From a bacterium (GTDB lineage: Bacteria > Bdellovibrionota_C > UBA2361 > OMII01): a stretch of 37,471 nucleotides of DNA. The notes beneath the pieces are model-generated. The model was not told where the DNA came from. It did not search any database and saw nothing but the letters and a program-made list of their open reading frames with translations. Numbering within the stretch: position 1 is the first letter of the stretch; each line of letters starts with the position of its first letter. The position numbers were made by a program, and so were the translations under genes. Shown here one piece after another: positions 17,941-27,288 of this stretch. The stretch spans positions 1 to 37,471 of the forward strand of contig JAFMJG010000008.1 of NCBI GenBank assembly GCA_017853605.1, written 5' to 3'.

Positions 17941-17975
17941 TCTTGGCGCATCGCAGCGTTCTTCCGATAGCGGGC

Positions 17976-18003
17976 GCAGAGCACCGGCAAAGAGGTGCTC
18001 TGC
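17976..18003. repeat. perfect 10 bp inverted repeat between rluD and the DUF2490 gene
   Basis: GCAGAGCACC (17976-17985) and GGTGCTCTGC (17994-18003) are perfect complements with an 8 nt loop. No T-run follows, so it is not a standard intrinsic terminator. It lies 38 bp before the ATG at 18042, which has no clear SD. It may be a regulatory or mRNA-stabilising hairpin. Confidence 0.55.
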
Positions 18004-18041
18004 AGGCTGCGGCGACTCCCGAAAAAACATGGGGCACCCCT

Positions 18042-18737
18042 ATGCGTCGGTTCCTTCAGCTGCTCGTCCTCATCCTGCCCATAGTTGCCGTAAGCTCGCC
18101 TGCCCACGCCCAGCAGACAGACTTTGAAGGGTGGTTCCAGTTCGTGACGAATGTCGGCCTCGATCCCGACCGTAGCTGGGTGTGGACGCTGGAGGATCAG
18201 CCTCGGCTCGGCGATGACTGGAAGAAGCTCAACACCAACATTATACGGACCTTCGTCACCTACAACATCGACAGGAACTTCGGTGTGTCGATCGGGTACC
18301 TGTGGGGGCCCACCTTCTACAACTCGAAGTACCAAAGCGTCTATCGCGACGAGAACCGCACCTTCCTTCAGCTCGGGTACAAGCACGATGGAGGGGGGAT
18401 CTGGTGGTACCACCGCTACCGCCAAGAGCAGCGCTTCATCGAAAACACCGATGGGGCCGTTTCCAATCGTGCTCGCTACCTCCTGCGCGCCAGCTACCCA
18501 CTGGCAGCTGACGAAAAGTGGGGGCTCACGGGCTACAATGAGATCTTCGTTAACTTTAATGGGGTGCCAAACGGCCCCACTGGCGGCTACGACCAGGACC
18601 GAATCTTCTTTGGCCCGTACCTTATCGTGGATAATGCTCGCTACGAGGTCGGGTTTCTTGAGCAGCACACCCAGCGGTTTGGCCTTGAGCCGCGCTGGGC
18701 GCAGGTGCTGATGTTTATGGTCTCGGTGGACTACTGA
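18042..18737 (+). CDS. DUF2490-like outer-membrane beta-barrel protein
   Basis: This 231 aa protein has a signal peptide MRRFLQLLVLILPIVAVSS, likely cut after AHA (about residue 24). The mature part consists of amphipathic, aromatic-rich beta strands, such as GWFQFVTNVGLDPDRSWVW, FGVSIGYLWGPT and YNEIFVNFNG. It ends in a strand with a terminal aromatic residue (VSVDY), a feature of outer-membrane barrels recognised by the BAM machinery. The pattern fits DUF2490, whose role is unknown. The in-frame start at 17943 would place 33 residues before the signal peptide and is rejected. It may be read with rluD or from a separate promoter. Confidence 0.8.
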   Translation: MRRFLQLLVLILPIVAVSSPAHAQQTDFEGWFQFVTNVGLDPDRSWVWTLEDQPRLGDDWKKLNTNIIRTFVTYNIDRNFGVSIGYLWGPTFYNSKYQSVYRDENRTFLQLGYKHDGGGIWWYHRYRQEQRFIENTDGAVSNRARYLLRASYPLAADEKWGLTGYNEIFVNFNGVPNGPTGGYDQDRIFFGPYLIVDNARYEVGFLEQHTQRFGLEPRWAQVLMFMVSVDY

Positions 18738-18983: not shown

Positions 18984-20654
18984 ATGTTTTATCGTGATGG
19001 GGCTTGTGTTCCCAAGCCGTCGGCTGTTCCTGCTGATGGACTAAGTGGCTTAAAACAGAATTGGCGCAAAGACCTCACTACGGGTCTCCTGGTATCTCTC
19101 ATCGCCCTTCCTCTCTGTCTCGGAATCGCGATGGCAAGTGGCTTCCCTGCGTTCGGTGGATTGGTGACCGCCATCGTCGGGGGCATCGTGGTCGGCCCCC
19201 TGTGTGGATCCCGGCTTTCAATTAAGGGCCCTGCGGCCGGGCTCATAGCGGTTTCTCTTGCGTCGGTTGAAGCGCTTGGGGCAGGGGACAGCTTCGCAGG
19301 ATACCGGTACACACTTGCGGTGCTGGTTGCTGCGGCGCTTCTCCAGATGGTGTTCGCTACCCTCCGTTTTGGGCGGTTTGGCGACTTCTTTCCGGCATCC
19401 GTGGTGCATGGGATGCTCGCTGCAATCGGCATCATCATCTTCTCCAAGCAGGTGCACCCCCTCCTTGGGGTCAAGGCGATTGCGCGAGACCCGATCCCCC
19501 TTTTGCTTGAGATCCCACATTCCCTAGTGAAGATGAATCCTGAGGTCGCGCTCGTCGGCATCACGAGCGTCATAATTGTGGTCTTCGCCGGCAAATTCCT
19601 GGGGCAGCTCGCCAAGTACTTCCCTGGGCCGCTCTTGGCAGTAGTCTCGGGCATGGGTTTCTGCCTCTTCTTTGACTTCGCGCACCCGCACCAGTACACG
19701 TGGTACTCAGATGCCTACTCGGTAGACGACAAGTTCCTGGTAGACCTGCCGAGCAATTTCGTGGCGGGCATCACCTTCCCGGATTTTGCAAAGCTCTTTT
19801 CGCTTCAGTCGCTTGAGTTCGTGCTCATGTTCGCGCTGATAGGGTCGATTGAGTCGCTCCTGACCGTGAAAGCAGTAGACACGATAGATCCGTACAAGAG
19901 GCACTCAAGCCTCAACAGGGACCTGGGGGCAGTAGGATTTGGCAACCTCCTTACGGCCATGTTAGGGGGGTTGCCGATGATATCCGAGGTCGTCCGCTCG
20001 TATGCAAACGTTACGTACGGCGCAAAGACGCGGTGGTCAAACTTTTTCCATGGCGCTTGCCTGCTGCTTTACGCAGTAGTGCTGGCGGACGTAATTCACC
20101 TTGTGCCGGTTGCGGCATTGTCAGGCGTCTTGTGCGTAACCGGCTTCCGCCTCGCTAGCCCCAAGCACTTCAAGGAGTGCCGGAGGGTTGGGCTTGACCA
20201 GTTTATTGTCTTCTCGGGAACCGTCCTGGCGACCCTGCTGACCGACCTTCTGTTGGGGGTGTTCATCGGAGTGCTGCTCCAGTACCTCGCCTGTCTAGTG
20301 ATGGGAGCGCCTCTTCGGTCGCTCGCGTCACGGGTGAAGCCGGGGATCGCCGATGGCAACGGGGAGATCTGCATCAAGATGCCGGCCAACTGCTTCTTTG
20401 GGAACGTGATCAGCTTCAAGAGCGCGCTGCAGAGAGCCTCTGACATGCCGCTGCGCCTTGACTTCTCGGAGACGGTGCTTGTCGATCACTCGTTCATGCG
20501 AGAGGTGAGGGCCGTGGAGTGCGCCGCGTCGCAGGAGAGCCGCAGTTTTGCCACGCCGGGACTCGAGCGGCTGGCCCCCGTGAGCTCCCATTATGAGGCG
20601 GCACGATCCTTGCGCTGCAAGAGCGCCCACATGGGCGAGCTCGCGCGCCCTTGA
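18984..20654 (+). CDS. SulP family inorganic anion (probable bicarbonate) transporter
   Basis: This is a 556 aa polytopic SLC26/SulP transporter. The N-terminal LTTGLLVSLIALPLCLGIAMASG (about 31-53) and GPAAGLIAV (82-90) are the family's conserved opening and core motifs. The segment NFFHGACLLLYAVVLADVIHLVP followed by AALSGVL (about 354-383) matches the conserved late membrane part. A C-terminal STAS-like domain (about 445-556) contains RLDFSETVLVDHSFM. SulP proteins carry sulfate, bicarbonate or other anions. Direct linkage to dabA makes bicarbonate the best guess, but this is inference. The ATG at 18984 has TAGGAG about 9 nt upstream. The stop lies 11 bp before dabA. Confidence 0.9.
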   Translation: MFYRDGACVPKPSAVPADGLSGLKQNWRKDLTTGLLVSLIALPLCLGIAMASGFPAFGGLVTAIVGGIVVGPLCGSRLSIKGPAAGLIAVSLASVEALGAGDSFAGYRYTLAVLVAAALLQMVFATLRFGRFGDFFPASVVHGMLAAIGIIIFSKQVHPLLGVKAIARDPIPLLLEIPHSLVKMNPEVALVGITSVIIVVFAGKFLGQLAKYFPGPLLAVVSGMGFCLFFDFAHPHQYTWYSDAYSVDDKFLVDLPSNFVAGITFPDFAKLFSLQSLEFVLMFALIGSIESLLTVKAVDTIDPYKRHSSLNRDLGAVGFGNLLTAMLGGLPMISEVVRSYANVTYGAKTRWSNFFHGACLLLYAVVLADVIHLVPVAALSGVLCVTGFRLASPKHFKECRRVGLDQFIVFSGTVLATLLTDLLLGVFIGVLLQYLACLVMGAPLRSLASRVKPGIADGNGEICIKMPANCFFGNVISFKSALQRASDMPLRLDFSETVLVDHSFMREVRAVECAASQESRSFATPGLERLAPVSSHYEAARSLRCKSAHMGELARP

Positions 20655-20665
20655 GGGAGGAACGG

Positions 20666-23600
20666 ATGGCGCGTGCAGGCCATATAGAGGACCTCCGGCA
20701 GCTGCGCTCTGTAGAGGAGATGATTGAGCGGATCGGGAGCTTCCTCCCATCGCAGGGCCCGCTGCGGACCTTTGTCCACCACAATACGCTTCACCACTTT
20801 GAGGACCTGGAGTTTTTTGAGGCTCTCGATGAGGCAGCGGGGGTCTTTGCCGCGAATACTGCGTTCCCAGAGACCACGTACCAAGGGCTGTGCCGTTCGG
20901 GCCGAATCGACCTGACTGACATCAACCGGGTGCTGGCGGAGCAATCCCTCGATGGCGCGATGTGGCTGTTGGGGGCTTCGCGCCGGAAGATGGTGCGATC
21001 GTTGATGCTTGCGGCGCCGGTGCCGCTCACAGCAGAAATGTTGCGGTGGAGACTCCTTGAGAAACGCTACCTGGACCGGTTTCACCCCGAGGTGAGTGCC
21101 AGCAAGGCGCAGCACATAGTCCAGTCGGACTCGCGGATTGCTGAAAGCCTTCTGCGCTACTGGCTCGATGCCTACGCCTCAATCGTGAAGGACTGGCATC
21201 AGGAGTGGCTGCATGAGCTGGTGGATGTGCACGAGCTCATGCACAGCCCGCAGGATTCCTGGACGGAAGGGGACTCACTCAGGCTGATGTGGATCGCCTC
21301 TATCGTCGTGGCTCGAGAGGTGTTGGCAGCGCGACCAGATTTTGGGGCAAGCCACCGCAGGCCGGCTAAGCATACCCCGATTGAGGAGACGGTGAATCCG
21401 TACCTAATCAAGTTTACGGCGTCTTTTCTCGATGCTGGGCTGGCCTACCTCACAATGTACGACCGAACGAGGGGCCTGCTGTGGGCCTTCTTCGCGCACA
21501 TGAGGAACACCTCGGCGGTACGGCCAACCTGGCTGCGGGGCGACCTGTCGCGGTTTGATGGGCTAAGGGCCTGCGATATCATAGAGCAGATCCTCCGCTC
21601 GCGGGGCGTCCCAGAGCCGGAGTGGGGGCAGTACTTGCTCGACAAGGCGCTGATCCTGAAGGGGTGGGGCGGCTTAGTCAGGCAGAGCGAGCTTGGAGTG
21701 TCAGGGGTCGCCACCCGTGCGGAGCTGCGCGATTTTCTCGCGGTGCGCCTGATGCTGGAGGAGCTCGCTGACGGCTACTACTCGCGCCACCCGCATCGCA
21801 TGCCGAGTTACGGCGATGAGGACCAGGAGTTCGAGCTTACCAGACCAGGCTTGGCGGATGTGGATGACGAAGCGACCCGCATTCGCACGACTGCCTACCA
21901 CCTCTTTCATGCCTTTCAGCTCCTGCCGTGCGCAGGGAGCGAGATCCTCGGCTTAAGCGCCGCAGAAAGGGAGGATCTGGTCTCCCTGGCTTGCCGTTTC
22001 GACGCCCCTGAGAGGTGCCGCGTGTGGCATCAGGCCTACGAGTGGAACCTGTACTCCCGAGCAGCCTCGGCGATTCTGGCGGTCAACCGGGAAAGGGGAC
22101 AGAAGCGGGCCTGCGAGCCGGCCTGCCAGGTTGTGTGTTGCATCGACGACCGGGAGGAGTCCTTTCGCCGCTACCTGGAGGAGATTAACGAAGGGTATGA
22201 GACGTTCGGCACAGCGGGGTTTTTCGGGGTGGATGCTGAATTTCACAGCCTCTATGAGCGCCCCGCGCCCTTCTGCCCCGTCAATGTCGTGCCAACCCAC
22301 TCGATTCAGGTCACAGCCCGTCGGGGCTCTGAGGGGCGGCTGCTGGGGCTCCAGCGGGTGAAGACACTCCAGTCGGACGTGGAGATGTTTATCGACAGCA
22401 AGTCTCGCTCCCTTGTCAGGGGGTGGTTGCTGGCTCTCGGCGGGATTGTCGCGCTTGTCCCGCTGTCACTGTCGACCCTCGCTCCCCGCCTGATGCACCG
22501 GGTGCGGGTGTACCTAAAGAGAGCCCTCCTCAATCCGGCAGATGAGAGCTCCATCGTGTTTGCCGAGGAGGAGGGGGCTGAAGACACGGGACGGTTCACG
22601 CTTGATGAGATGGCGCTGCGCGTGCGCACCCTGCTGCAGACAACTGGGCTAAGCCGGCATCTGGCCCCCCTCGTGGTTGTGATGGGCCACGGGTCATACA
22701 GCACCAACAATCCCTACCGCTCTGCGTACGACTGTGGCGCGTGTGGAGGCCGGCCGGGGAGGCTGAATCCCCGCGTGTTCGCCCTGATGGCGAACCGCAG
22801 GGATGTCCGGGAGAAGGTGAGAGAGCAGGGGATTGAGATACCGGAGGCAACGCAGTTCGTTGGGGCGTTCCACAACACGACCACGGACGCAGTGGAGTAC
22901 TTCGACCTAGATTCCATATCCTCGGCGAACCGCAAAGTTTTTGAAAAGTTCCGGGCTGACGTCGAGGTGGCACGCGCCCAAAATGCCCTTGAGCGTTGCC
23001 GCAGGTTTGATGACGCAGAGGTGTCAACGGTATCGCAGGCCATCGCCCACGTTGAGTCTCGCGCGCACCACATCGCCCAGCCCCGGCCCGAGTACGGGCA
23101 TGCCACCAATGCGATATGCGTGGTCGGCCGCAGGGAGATCACCAAAGGGCTCTTTCTCGATCGCCGGGCGTTCCTCGTGTCATATGACAAGGCTGCCGAT
23201 CCTGAGACCGCAGCCCTCCGAAACCTGCTGCGCGCGGTTATTCCGGTGTGCATGGGCATCAACCTGGAGTACTTCTTTTCGGCCCTCGATAACCAGCGGT
23301 ATGGGGCGGGAACCAAGCTCCCGCACAACGTAACATCGCTGCTTGGCTTGATGACCGGCTACTGCAGCGACCTTCGGACGGGCCTGCCAGCCCAGATGAT
23401 AGAGATTCATGAGGCCACGCGCCTCCTGGTGATTATCGAGCAGGAGCCTGACAAGATACTTGAGTTGCTGTCGCGCGAGCCCGAGCTGGACCGAGTGGTG
23501 AAAAACCGTTGGGTGGTGGTGATGGCCTACCGCGCAGAGGCGAACGAGCTGTTCCTGTTCGACCATACCCAAGCTTTTGTCAAGCTTGAGGGTGCCATAG

Positions 23601-23689
23601 GGGGCCTTCGGAGCGTGGCGTCATCCCTCGACTGGGTAGTTGGCAAAAAGGAGCACCTTGAGTTTGTGCGGATCGGGAGGGCCACCTGA
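20666..23689 (+). CDS. dabA: DUF2309 inorganic carbon transport subunit DabA
   Basis: DabA is the carbonic anhydrase-like, zinc-binding subunit of DAB energy-coupled inorganic carbon pumps. It is thought to hydrate CO2 in one direction at the membrane. The zinc-site residues are present: C492 and D494 in CCIDDREES, H675 in VVMGHGSYS and C690 in YDCGAC. The H-to-C spacing of 15 equals that of the characterised Halothiobacillus protein (H524, C539). The protein is 1007 aa and mostly soluble, with one hydrophobic stretch at about 583-605. The opening LRTFVHHNTLHHFEDLEF (about 33-50) is the family N-terminal signature. The start is ATG at 20666 with GGGAGGA about 5 nt upstream, rather than the in-frame TTG at 20651. 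The stop overlaps the next ATG by one base. Confidence 0.95.
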   Translation: MARAGHIEDLRQLRSVEEMIERIGSFLPSQGPLRTFVHHNTLHHFEDLEFFEALDEAAGVFAANTAFPETTYQGLCRSGRIDLTDINRVLAEQSLDGAMWLLGASRRKMVRSLMLAAPVPLTAEMLRWRLLEKRYLDRFHPEVSASKAQHIVQSDSRIAESLLRYWLDAYASIVKDWHQEWLHELVDVHELMHSPQDSWTEGDSLRLMWIASIVVAREVLAARPDFGASHRRPAKHTPIEETVNPYLIKFTASFLDAGLAYLTMYDRTRGLLWAFFAHMRNTSAVRPTWLRGDLSRFDGLRACDIIEQILRSRGVPEPEWGQYLLDKALILKGWGGLVRQSELGVSGVATRAELRDFLAVRLMLEELADGYYSRHPHRMPSYGDEDQEFELTRPGLADVDDEATRIRTTAYHLFHAFQLLPCAGSEILGLSAAEREDLVSLACRFDAPERCRVWHQAYEWNLYSRAASAILAVNRERGQKRACEPACQVVCCIDDREESFRRYLEEINEGYETFGTAGFFGVDAEFHSLYERPAPFCPVNVVPTHSIQVTARRGSEGRLLGLQRVKTLQSDVEMFIDSKSRSLVRGWLLALGGIVALVPLSLSTLAPRLMHRVRVYLKRALLNPADESSIVFAEEEGAEDTGRFTLDEMALRVRTLLQTTGLSRHLAPLVVVMGHGSYSTNNPYRSAYDCGACGGRPGRLNPRVFALMANRRDVREKVREQGIEIPEATQFVGAFHNTTTDAVEYFDLDSISSANRKVFEKFRADVEVARAQNALERCRRFDDAEVSTVSQAIAHVESRAHHIAQPRPEYGHATNAICVVGRREITKGLFLDRRAFLVSYDKAADPETAALRNLLRAVIPVCMGINLEYFFSALDNQRYGAGTKLPHNVTSLLGLMTGYCSDLRTGLPAQMIEIHEATRLLVIIEQEPDKILELLSREPELDRVVKNRWVVVMAYRAEANELFLFDHTQAFVKLEGAIGGLRSVASSLDWVVGKKEHLEFVRIGRAT

Positions 23690-25041
23690 TGGGCGCGCTG
23701 CAGGCAGTCGCTTGTGCCATTTTCTTTGGGCCCCTGGCCTCGCTTGTAGTCCTTGGGCTCGTGGGATTTACCCCCCTTCGATCACGTGAACGGCTGATTA
23801 AGAGGGTAGTGGCCACGGGCCAGTCGGCGGCGTTTGTGAGTGGCGTTGCCCTTGCTGTGGTGATGGTGCGGCGGTACCTCGCCAGCGGCTCTCTAGAGCC
23901 GATCGACATCTTTCACTACCACTTCTTCTCATTCAACCACCACGTCGTTGAGATCGGCCTGCGGCTCGACCTGCTCAACATCTGGTTCGTGCTGATGGCG
24001 ACAACCCTCTCAAATATCGTGGGAGTCTTTTCGCAGCACTACCTGCATCGGGACCCGGGGTTCTACCGGTTCTTTTTCCTGATTGTCCTATTCCTAAATG
24101 GGGTGCTCATCGTGTTCCTCGCCAGCAGCTTCCAGGCGCTTTTTATTGGGTGGGAGCTGGTTGGCATCACGTCCGCCCTGCTCATATCGTTCTTTACTGT
24201 CCGGCGAGAGACCATCGACAACGCCCTCCACGCATTCTGGGCATACCGGGTTTGCGACGTTGGGCTGCTGTGCGGCGCGGCGCTGCTTGCGGCTCACCTG
24301 CCCGCCGACCAGTTTGCGCTTGGCGCGGGCCTTCCGCGGGCGCTCCCAGGCGAGCTTGCATACCTGGTGCCGTTTCTCTTCCTCTTTTCTGCAATGGGTA
24401 AGTCTGCGCAGTACCCCTACTCCTCGTGGCTTCCCCGCGCGATGGAGGGCCCAACATCCTCGAGCGCGATTTTTTATGGCGGGCTTTCAATTCATGCTGG
24501 CGTGTACCTCCTTCTCCGCTTGCGGCTGCAGTACGAGGTGCCCACAGCGATGCTCGTTGCCACCGCCGCCGTCGGGGCGATCTCGTGTGTCTATGGCGTC
24601 TTGCTCAGCCAGGTCCAGAGTGACGTGAAGAGCGCACTCGCGTATGCGTCTCTCTCCCAGGTAGGGATCATGTTTGTCGAGATAAGCCTCGGCTGGTACT
24701 ACGTGGCAACGATTCACTGCATCGGGCATGCGTTCCTGCGCACCTACCAGATACTTAAGTGCTCATCCATCATTCACCAGTTTGTGGCATTTGAGGACGC
24801 TCACCAATTCGACGCTGAGAGGGCAAAGGCGAAGTTTCTGCCGCTGCTGCTCCCGGCAGGGGCGCTGAGCAGGGGGTTCAGCATAGCTTTTGACCTCGCG
24901 CTGAGGGCGGCATCCGGACGGAGCCTGCTTGTCATGAGCCTTGAGCGGCTGTCGCGGCGGCTTCAGGAGGGAGAGGAGCGCTGGATCTCGTTCATCTCTG
25001 GTTCGGGGCGGGGTGGCGGCCGGGGAGGGGAAGGATCATGA
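23689..25041 (+). CDS. dabB: DabB-like proton-conducting membrane subunit (NuoL/MrpA fold)
   Basis: This 450 aa polytopic protein is the energy-coupling partner of DabA. Complex I antiporter-subunit residues are retained: E156 in FIGWELVGITSALL, K238 in MGKSAQYPYSSWLP and K314 in SDVKSALAYASLSQVG. The segment AMEGPTSSSAIFYGG (251-265) corresponds to the discontinuous helix AMxGPTPVSAL of NuoL. The motif HAFFKALLF appears as HAFLRTYQILK. At 450 aa it is clearly shorter than NuoL (about 610) and lacks the long lateral helix; the last 40 residues are basic, Gly-rich and cytosolic-looking. It starts in a TGATG overlap with dabA and ends in an ATGA overlap with the next gene. Confidence 0.9.
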   Translation: MGALQAVACAIFFGPLASLVVLGLVGFTPLRSRERLIKRVVATGQSAAFVSGVALAVVMVRRYLASGSLEPIDIFHYHFFSFNHHVVEIGLRLDLLNIWFVLMATTLSNIVGVFSQHYLHRDPGFYRFFFLIVLFLNGVLIVFLASSFQALFIGWELVGITSALLISFFTVRRETIDNALHAFWAYRVCDVGLLCGAALLAAHLPADQFALGAGLPRALPGELAYLVPFLFLFSAMGKSAQYPYSSWLPRAMEGPTSSSAIFYGGLSIHAGVYLLLRLRLQYEVPTAMLVATAAVGAISCVYGVLLSQVQSDVKSALAYASLSQVGIMFVEISLGWYYVATIHCIGHAFLRTYQILKCSSIIHQFVAFEDAHQFDAERAKAKFLPLLLPAGALSRGFSIAFDLALRAASGRSLLVMSLERLSRRLQEGEERWISFISGSGRGGGRGGEGS

Positions 25042-26462
25042 ATGCGGCCCAAGAGACCGCCACTCTGGTGGCGCTCGTTGCAGCCTTTGTGCTCTCGTCG
25101 CTTTTTGCGCTCGTGCGGGAGCGCCGTGGAGTCAGGGGCTTTGGCCGGGGCTTTGCTGTCATCATGGCGCTTGCCGCGGTGGCGATGACCGTGCTCCAGA
25201 GCGTTGAGTTCCAGATGGAGCCAGGCGGGATCGCTATGGGGCCAATGGTTGCGAATCGTCACGCTGCATACGTCGACAAGCTCACTTTTGAGGCGAAGTA
25301 CCTCTGCTCAGTTGTCAGCTCAGTGCTGTTTCTCGGGGCCGTGCTCTTTACGCCTTCGGTTCCCCTTGTGCGCTTGCGGATGAGCAGGATCTTCCTGATG
25401 CAGGCCCTCGTGTTCTCCCTGGTTGAGGTCCAGCGCGTGACGAACTTTCTTCTCATTGGGGCCCTCCTCATCCTCGTGTGCATAGGGGAGGCGCGCCACT
25501 ACTCCCAGAGCCTCAGGGCAGATGAGCGGCGCGAGGTTCGCGGCAACGCCTTTGTGCGCTACCAGTGGGTTGCGCTCGCTGCAATCTTCGTCTGCCTGGG
25601 CTTGCGCGTGCTCGCACGGATCGGCGTGGCGGAGGCGAATCCGGCCCTTCAGGCGGTCGACCTCGGCATGCTCTGCGTCGCATCAGCGGTTGTTGTTGGG
25701 CTGTTCCCTTTTCACGGGTGGGTAGTGCCATTTCTCGGAGCGCCACGCAGCACCATCTTTCTTCCCCTCCTCTGCCTCGAGATGGGGATGCTCTTTTTCT
25801 TCCGCCTCTACGCGCCGATAGTTACCCAGTACATGAGCCACTCATACCTGCTCATGATCGTGCCAGTGGCGGGGCTTATATACTCGGCCCTTCTTTTCTT
25901 CGGTGAGCAGCGGCTTAAGCGCATCCCAGGATGCCTGTACCTGAGCCACGTCTCCCTCATGGCGCTTAGCGCCAGCGGCTTTGAGTCCATGGGGATAACC
26001 ACGTCGATGATAGACGGCGTAAACGTGCTGCTGGCTGTCCTTGGGCTGCTTGGCGTGTGCTCTCTCTTGACTGCCCGGTTCGGGGTTCGGGGGGTGCTGG
26101 CGCCCTCGGGCCTGGGGGCGCGATTCCCCGAGCTGGCCGTGTGCTACCTGGTCTGCGTGCTCTCCCTAGTGGGGTTTCCGGGAACGCTGGGATTTATCGA
26201 GGAGGAGGTTGCGCTCGGCCAGGGCCTGGAGCATCACGCTTTCTTGGTTGGGGTGGTCGCTATGGCGCTGACGCTTAACGGATTTTCTGGCTTTCGCCTC
26301 TTTGCGCGGATTTTTTATGGCCAGCCGCTCGAGGGGGGAGATCCGGAAACCGCGCTCTCGTTCCGCGAGAGGGTCGTCATTATATCAATTGTGGCGCTCA
26401 TTATCCTTAACGGGGTAGCCCCGAGGCTGTTGGTCCGCTCGCTCACAGATTTCGCTTCCTAG
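25038..26462 (+). CDS. second, divergent complex I antiporter-like subunit of the DAB operon
   Basis: This 474 aa polytopic protein, about 12-14 hydrophobic segments by eye, has the proton-conducting transporter fold of NuoM/NuoN. The best anchor is VVGLFPFHGWVVPFLGAPRS (about 219-238), matching the K-x-P-x-x-x-W-x-P-x-x-x-x-A-P region of NuoN/NuoM. The lysine that normally precedes it is not there (V220-G221). A charged E130 in the FSLVEVQRV helix may stand in for the conserved glutamate. It overlaps the preceding gene by 4 bp (ATGA), so the two are probably made in equal amounts. Characterised DAB systems are DabA plus one DabB; this extra subunit is the unusual part. It ends 46 bp before pgeF. 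Confidence 0.85.
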   Translation: MNAAQETATLVALVAAFVLSSLFALVRERRGVRGFGRGFAVIMALAAVAMTVLQSVEFQMEPGGIAMGPMVANRHAAYVDKLTFEAKYLCSVVSSVLFLGAVLFTPSVPLVRLRMSRIFLMQALVFSLVEVQRVTNFLLIGALLILVCIGEARHYSQSLRADERREVRGNAFVRYQWVALAAIFVCLGLRVLARIGVAEANPALQAVDLGMLCVASAVVVGLFPFHGWVVPFLGAPRSTIFLPLLCLEMGMLFFFRLYAPIVTQYMSHSYLLMIVPVAGLIYSALLFFGEQRLKRIPGCLYLSHVSLMALSASGFESMGITTSMIDGVNVLLAVLGLLGVCSLLTARFGVRGVLAPSGLGARFPELAVCYLVCVLSLVGFPGTLGFIEEEVALGQGLEHHAFLVGVVAMALTLNGFSGFRLFARIFYGQPLEGGDPETALSFRERVVIISIVALIILNGVAPRLLVRSLTDFAS

Positions 26463-26508: not shown

Positions 26509-27288
26509 TTGCTGGTGCGGGAAGCTCGCGATGGCATGGACCCTAGCTTTGGTTTTGTTCAGCACGGCCCCTTTGAGCTCCTCGTGTATCTTCCGTGGTG
26601 GCGCGCAGGCGTGGTTCACGGGATGACGATGAGGCGCCATGCATTCAGGGGTGATTCGGCGGCGAGGGATGTCGGAGCCTTGTGTGAGAGCTTCCGTGTC
26701 GAGGACCTTGTTGTTCCGCGGCAGTGCCACGGCAACGGCGTGCTGGATCTCCGGCCGGAGTCTGTGCGACGCGCGCTTGTCGAGAGCTCTCTTGGGCGCC
26801 TCTGTCGTTTTGAGGAGGGGGACGCGCTTCTCATTCCGTGCGACCAGGGCACCGGCGGGCCGAGGCTTGCGTTTGGCGTCATGAGCGCGGATTGTGTTCC
26901 GGTGCTTCTGCGCGCAGGCACAGGTTGGGCAGCTGTGCATGCAGGGTGGCGCGGCCTTGCAAACGGGGTTATCGAAAGGGCGGTTAAGGGGCTGGGCGGG
27001 GTCGTCGAGGGTATCGTGTTCGCATCTGCCGGAGGGGCGGCTTACGAGGTCGGGCGTGAGGTGGTCGAGGCGATCGGGGCAACGGCCGCCTTTGAGCCTG
27101 TGCGGGGAAGGGATGACCGGGCTCTTCTCGACACGGCTGCCACGGCAGTCAACCAGTTGCGGCGTGTCGCCAGGGAGGCGCATCTGGCATCCGCCGGTAT
27201 CTGCACCATTCAGGAGCCGAGGTTCCACTCATTCCGTCGTGATGGCGAAGCTGCGGGCCGGGGCATCACGTTTGTGGTCCCGCCGTAG
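26509..27288 (+). CDS. pgeF: purine nucleoside phosphorylase/peptidoglycan editing factor (YfiH, laccase domain)
   Basis: This multicopper-laccase-domain protein of the YfiH/LACC1 family is about 259 aa. The zinc site is intact: H74 in RQCHGNG, C129 in SADCVPVLL and H144 in AVHAGWRG. The GPxIxxxxFEVG motif is replaced by FASAGGAAYEVG (170-181). Family members act on purine nucleosides and, in E. coli, prevent misincorporation into peptidoglycan. The start is unclear. TTG at 26509 is used here; AGGAG at 26491-26495 is 13 nt away, and better spaced (7 nt) for an in-frame CTG at 26503. ATG at 26536 is another option. It may be co-transcribed with the DAB genes. Confidence 0.88.
   Translation: MLVREARDGMDPSFGFVQHGPFELLVYLPWWRAGVVHGMTMRRHAFRGDSAARDVGALCESFRVEDLVVPRQCHGNGVLDLRPESVRRALVESSLGRLCRFEEGDALLIPCDQGTGGPRLAFGVMSADCVPVLLRAGTGWAAVHAGWRGLANGVIERAVKGLGGVVEGIVFASAGGAAYEVGREVVEAIGATAAFEPVRGRDDRALLDTAATAVNQLRRVAREAHLASAGICTIQEPRFHSFRRDGEAAGRGITFVVPP

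Follow-up and report, generated by a model that had tools for sequence, protein, structure and literature searches.

What would a DabA-type carbonic anhydrase do with two antiporter-like membrane subunits, when the described DAB pumps use a single DabB? The question is raised by four plus-strand open reading frames in the genome of an uncultured bacterium from a small phylum (46 genomes). The window, by which we mean the whole stretch of 37,471 nucleotides that was analysed, holds them in the order SulP (18984-20654), DabA (20666-23689), a NuoL-like protein (23689-25041) and a NuoM-like protein (25038-26462). The last two are referred to here as DabB_L and DabB_M.

The operon and its relatives

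The original prediction described these genes as a variant DAB operon, and its account of their packing is borne out by the open reading frames, which are spaced by 11, -1 and -4 bp. The DabA start is placed at the ATG at 20666; a TTG at 20651 is open too. Pfam and NCBIfam assignments and the nearest solved relatives agree on a SulP-family anion transporter of 556 aa (PF00916, 1e-53; closest solved sequence 6ki1, E 1.7e-22), DabA, a zinc beta-carbonic-anhydrase-like subunit of 1007 aa (PF10070, 1e-205; solved DabA2, 9rd0_A, 6e-61), DabB_L of 450 aa, a NuoL/DabB-like protein (PF00361, 2e-33, and PF00662; nearest to NuoL/ND5), and DabB_M of 474 aa (PF00361, 1e-12, over profile positions 75-286 only; nearest to NuoM/ND4). 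A scan for promoters and terminators gave nothing above chance. As the prediction had asked to be checked, the four-gene order recurs elsewhere, in the same genus, in another family of the order, in another family of the class and in other phyla, so the arrangement is not a chance one. Two further genes adjoin the operon. A PgeF-like gene (26509-27288) begins 46 bp after DabB_M and lies likewise 3' of the operon in loci L020 and L026, and was not found beside it in other loci. A DUF2490 protein with a weak barrel-like match (window 17943-18737) recurs beside SulP/DabA in L019 (4241-4933), L023 (7651-8340), L026 (1-759), L044 (1792-2529) and L084 (3414-4142), and adjoins SulP in Verrucomicrobia too.

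The match of DabA to PF10070 spans the whole profile (1-747). Its zinc site, C492, D494, R496, H675 and C690 (22139..22735, plus strand), aligns with C351, D353, R355, H524 and C539 of DabA2, which places the four zinc residues named in the prediction where it had put them. All catalytic residues tested in DabA2, the zinc ligands and the Asp-Arg dyad, are thus conserved in the window DabA, and the zinc-site residues are invariant in 107 aligned DabA sequences, bar one gap at C690. With its Cys2His zinc ligands, its dyad and an adjacent NuoL-like partner, the operon groups by sequence with the DAB/DAC systems, as predicted. We considered and rejected the idea that it is part of Complex I: a separate set of genes of the NuoL, NuoM and NuoN types lies on contig 59 of the genome, and the window operon is not a nuo operon with a quinone module.

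The combination of genes was known before, from a COGNAT study of 2017. The accessible part of that paper (PMC5700660) describes DabA (YbcC, COG3002) upstream of a NuoL homologue in clusters that frequently include a sulfate permease and NuoM; it assigns no function there, and its only hint at mechanism is that the number of subunits may be linked to the number of ions moved. The window operon has this clade C arrangement and is the same kind of cluster, for which that part of the text holds no residue or fusion analysis. In the openly accessible literature we found no description of the function or mechanism of the SulP-DabA-NuoL-NuoM cluster. The operon is a real and widespread DAB variant, noticed before but uncharacterised. 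What is new here is a residue-level case for a split channel.

We surveyed the 80 named loci nearest to the window DabA and the genomes of the host phylum. The clade extends to Planctomycetes, Verrucomicrobia, Acidobacteria, Myxococcota, Armatimonadota and one actinobacterium. DabB_M is present in 60 related loci, and the loci with DabB_L and no DabB_M have at most 679 bp of contig left. Two Schlesneria loci (L051, L059) have a DabA of the clade and neither DabB within about 6 kb. Apart from these two, DabB_M is missing only at contig ends and is a fixed partner. The second membrane subunit is accordingly integral, as predicted; wherever enough sequence is available, we found no case of its absence beside the other three genes.

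SulP behaves differently from the fixed partner. It lies upstream on the same strand in 16 loci, downstream in 15 and upstream on the opposite strand in five, and is absent from nine loci with at least 2.5 kb of sequence on both sides. Its absence and its opposite orientation lead us to reject it as an obligatory component; the original prediction had counted it as part of the system, and it is better regarded as optional, though frequent. An identification as BicA is not supported, at 132 bits against the NCBIfam BicA equivalog cut-off of 880, and the protein also falls under the NCBIfam sulP cut-off (151 against 380 bits).

Two further occurrences of such genes were seen. One genome of the host phylum (G028) has two kinds of DabA, one of the SulP-linked clade and the other from a one-DabB system (L017, L018). 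The 'och' operon of Leptospirillum, described as oxidative-stress genes (PMC9080137), encodes a 553-aa NuoL-like protein and an 823-aa DUF2309 protein that look like DabB and DabA.

The membrane finger of DabA

In the cryo-EM structure of DAB2, a two-helix finger of DabA2 inserts into DabB2, where its Glu444 stands in for NuoL TM12b Lys399/Asp400 in the half-channel on the periplasmic side; activity is lost in both the E444A and the E444Q mutant (PMC13144422). We compared this position in three groups: the two-subunit clade of the window, the one-DabB systems (13 plasmid-encoded, one from the host phylum, and DabA2) and a sister group of Nitrosomonas-type and other sequences. The DabA-linked plasmid records examined were all of the one-DabB type and served as the comparison set.

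The window DabA keeps a hydrophobic finger (residues 580-613; 22403..22504, plus strand) without the glutamate of DAB2, the aligned residue being Ala. Throughout the two-subunit clade the position is non-acidic (77/77; Ala 42, Gly 14, Ser 10, Thr 5, Pro 4, Gln 1, Val 1), against Glu in 15 of 15 one-DabB sequences. It is Asp in 10 of 15 members of the sister group and acidic in all 29 further DabAs of an unrelated class (Asp 19, Glu 10). The exact position relies on aligning a short hydrophobic stretch; independent of that, only 1 of the 77 sequences of the clade has an acid within nine residues of it. The clade is monophyletic in the DabA tree, so these patterns may reflect a single ancestral event, and the sequence counts overstate independence.

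Elsewhere in DabA, His812 (in RPEYGHATN; gene 20666-23689) stands at the site of DabA2 Leu658, which itself stands in for the Gln/His of carbonic anhydrase; the residue is His in 76 of 76 sequences of the two-subunit clade and Leu in 15 of 15 one-DabB sequences.

The two membrane subunits

DabB_L is a shortened NuoL-like protein. Its AF2 model (pLDDT 88.9, pTM 0.88) has TM1-11 and two further, short helices; its alignment with NuoL covers about 370 columns. After TM11 there are 81-125 residues in the DabB_L proteins of the clade, against 168-204 in the DabB of one-DabB systems. TM12-15 are missing and with them, therefore, the helices of the outer half-channel. Residues of the inner half are retained. 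Glu156 (24154..24156, plus strand), the TM5 ion-pair Glu equivalent to NuoL E144, is Glu in 67 of 67 sequences of the clade and in 0 of 14 one-DabB proteins, and Lys238 (24400..24402, plus strand), equivalent to NuoL K229 in TM7, is Lys in 67 of 67. In TM11, His343, His347 and Arg351 (24715..24741, plus strand) correspond to His, His and Lys of DAB2, the last being Arg in 65 of 65 sequences of the clade and Lys in 14 of 14 one-DabB proteins; in TM8, Tyr (67/67) replaces His (14/14). Ion pairs known from the subunit interfaces of Complex I, and lost from one-DabB systems, are thus retained in DabB_L.

The model of DabB_M (pLDDT 88.4, pTM 0.90) shows a complete NuoM/MrpD antiporter fold with TM7 and TM12 broken, and the best Foldseek matches are MrpD, NuoM, NdhD and NdhD3. 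Among 60 sequences the TM5 Glu and the TM8 Lys are lost and the TM7 Lys is mostly Arg (Val in the window). The family has only two conserved acidic columns, window residues 390 and 444, the latter unrelated to Glu444 of DabA2. Glu390 belongs to a run of TM12b acids, Glu388-390 (26199..26207, plus strand); it lies one position after NuoM Glu407, aligns with NuoL Asp400, and is acidic in 58 of 59 sequences (Glu 40, Asp 18). Across the alignments the key columns of the subunits are nearly invariant.

Could DabA and DabB_L work alone in the manner of DAB2, with DabB_M structural or regulatory and another residue in place of the finger Glu? The Lys and His residues of the inner half-channel and all zinc residues are kept, and the finger is still hydrophobic. 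We nevertheless find this rather improbable: 76 of 77 fingers have no acid within nine residues of the position, Gln or Ala cannot replace the Glu in DAB2 (PMC13144422), and the conserved TM12 acid of DabB_M is left unexplained.

Natural fusions join the two proteins. A Competibacteraceae MAG (L086) encodes a whole DabB_L and a whole DabB_M in one 1045-aa chain. In L024, a locus of the window's class that the DabA tree places within the clade, DabB_L is joined to the C-terminal, outer-half part of DabB_M only, with the TM12 acid retained; its DabA has no finger acid, and no separate DabB_M or SulP was found near the fusion. These observations bear on the two-subunit motor suggested in the original prediction, in which DabB_L and DabB_M would each conduct ions and move more protons per CO2, in line with the ion-number idea of PMC5700660. 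The complete NuoM-like fold of DabB_M, with both broken helices, speaks for it, as do sister-group clusters with up to four antiporter-like subunits. Neither channel looks complete, though, since the window DabB_M is without the TM5 Glu, TM7 Lys and TM8 Lys of an inner half and DabB_L is without TM12-15, and L024 makes do with the outer half of DabB_M. Such a motor is unlikely, and fits the data less well than one split channel.

The sister-group clusters, of Nitrosomonas, Nitrotoga, Methylococcus and Magnetococcales type (L077, L093, L099, L101, L103, L104, L106, L108), apparently have a larger membrane arm. Four DabAs of this group (L087, L093, L098, L108) have no finger acid, and the TM12 of their DabB_M-like proteins, where seen (L093, L108), reads FDxxH, with His at the acid position. 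The Nitrosomonas-type group shows that the acid swap is not strictly reciprocal in every group of DabA.

A proposed divided proton channel and the carbon supply

From these observations we propose a vectorial carbonic anhydrase of DAB/DAC type, powered by the proton motive force, in which two membrane proteins share one proton channel between them; we place this reading just on the probable side. It is favoured because DabB_M accompanies DabB_L in all loci with enough contig, because the finger acid essential in DAB2 is missing from the clade yet present in one-DabB DabAs, because DabB_M retains an acid aligned with NuoL Asp400 and has lost the TM5 Glu and TM8 Lys, because DabB_L is truncated after TM11 and keeps the TM5 Glu, and because the fusions join DabB_L to DabB_M or to its outer half alone. 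Subunits of Complex I have their N-terminal repeat on the cytoplasmic side and their C-terminal repeat on the periplasmic side, and protons have been suggested to hop from TM12 of NuoM to TM5 of NuoL (PMC10212512). In our model, a periplasmic proton would enter DabB_M by its outer half-channel and reach Glu390. With DabB_M and DabB_L docked as in Complex I, this TM12 acid would hand it to the TM5/TM7 ion-pair site of DabB_L (Glu156/Arg187, Asp190/Lys238), and the inner half-channel of DabB_L, which would lie below DabA, would release it into the cytoplasm. Relayed by the acid-free finger, this transfer may open the zinc site for one-way hydration of CO2 to bicarbonate. The acid of the outer half-channel, finger Glu444 in DAB2, would thus be supplied by DabB_M, and, as in DAB2, the proton motive force would drive protons inward. 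SulP would be an accessory that probably moves a related anion, perhaps bicarbonate.

Several observations count against a split channel. Simulations cited in PMC11496545 point to a possibly prohibitive barrier to proton transfer between antiporter subunits. DabB_L still has some of a lateral path of its own, in which the TM8 His is changed to Tyr and the TM11 Lys to Arg. The exchange of acids is incomplete in the sister group, and the residue patterns stem from one monophyletic clade.

How does the system compare with known ones? It shares with DAB2 of Halothiobacillus neapolitanus (DabA2-DabB2, PDB 9rd0) the DabA zinc site and a NuoL-like partner with TM1-11, the TM7 Lys and the TM11 His residues. 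DAB2 has one full-length 15-TM DabB, the finger Glu444, a TM11 Lys and a TM8 His, and has lost the TM5 Glu; the window system, by contrast, has two membrane subunits, no finger acid, the TM5 Glu, TM11 Arg, TM8 Tyr and an optional SulP, and with neither a finger Glu nor a single 15-TM DabB it falls outside the DAB2 subtype. Cyanobacterial NDH-1MS, which pairs NdhF3 and NdhD3 with the CO2-hydrating CupA (PMC6981117), offers an example of a NuoL-like and a NuoM-like subunit that carry a zinc protein for CO2 hydration on their cytoplasmic face, and it too has the interface ion pairs on the NuoL-like subunit. NDH-1MS differs in being an electron-driven Complex I assembly with a full-length NdhF3 and with CupA in place of DabA; in the window, the zinc protein adjoining the pair is a DabA (PF10070). 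A broader claim is possible, though a shade short of probable: that the essential channel residue has moved from the DabA finger of one-DabB pumps to TM12 of a second subunit, so that inner and outer halves lie on two proteins, as a redox-free counterpart of NdhF3-NdhD3-Cup in several phyla.

The window genome has one DabA, three beta-carbonic anhydrases and three SulP genes. Two tandem beta-carbonic anhydrases and two tandem SulP genes lie elsewhere in it (G000), on contig 62 (L111, L112) and contig 136 (L128, L130). No match to RuBisCO, PEP carboxylase or pyruvate carboxylase was found in this genome, which is 96.6% complete. CO2 fixation by the RuBisCO route is therefore unlikely, a carboxysome-type CO2-concentrating mechanism is rejected, and the bicarbonate would go to other carboxylases. 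With three carbonic anhydrases and none of these enzymes, it is not evident why a carbon pump would be needed, and the SulP is distant from BicA; the complex might then run outward, an exergonic DabA reaction expelling ions as suggested in PMC5700660, which predates the characterisation of DABs, or the anion that SulP and DabA handle might be one other than bicarbonate. We judge this quite improbable, because all catalytic residues tested in DabA2 are conserved and because MpsAB, a DabAB homologue of a heterotroph, is reported to serve carbon supply (PMC6689103). MpsAB of Staphylococcus supplies carbon in a bacterium without CO2 fixation; it has a single MpsA, and a plasmid copy (L125) has the finger Glu, the TM11 Lys and no TM5 Glu.

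What would a split channel mean? If our model is correct, an antiporter-like subunit has been taken apart by nature into two half-channels, which bears on proton conduction and handover in Complex I; the system is small enough for a growth-rescue test in E. coli. Clusters that are usually annotated as NADH dehydrogenase subunits and sulfate permeases would gain a function, and carbonic anhydrase chemistry would have a second way of being coupled to proton flow, in many bacteria possibly without CO2 fixation.
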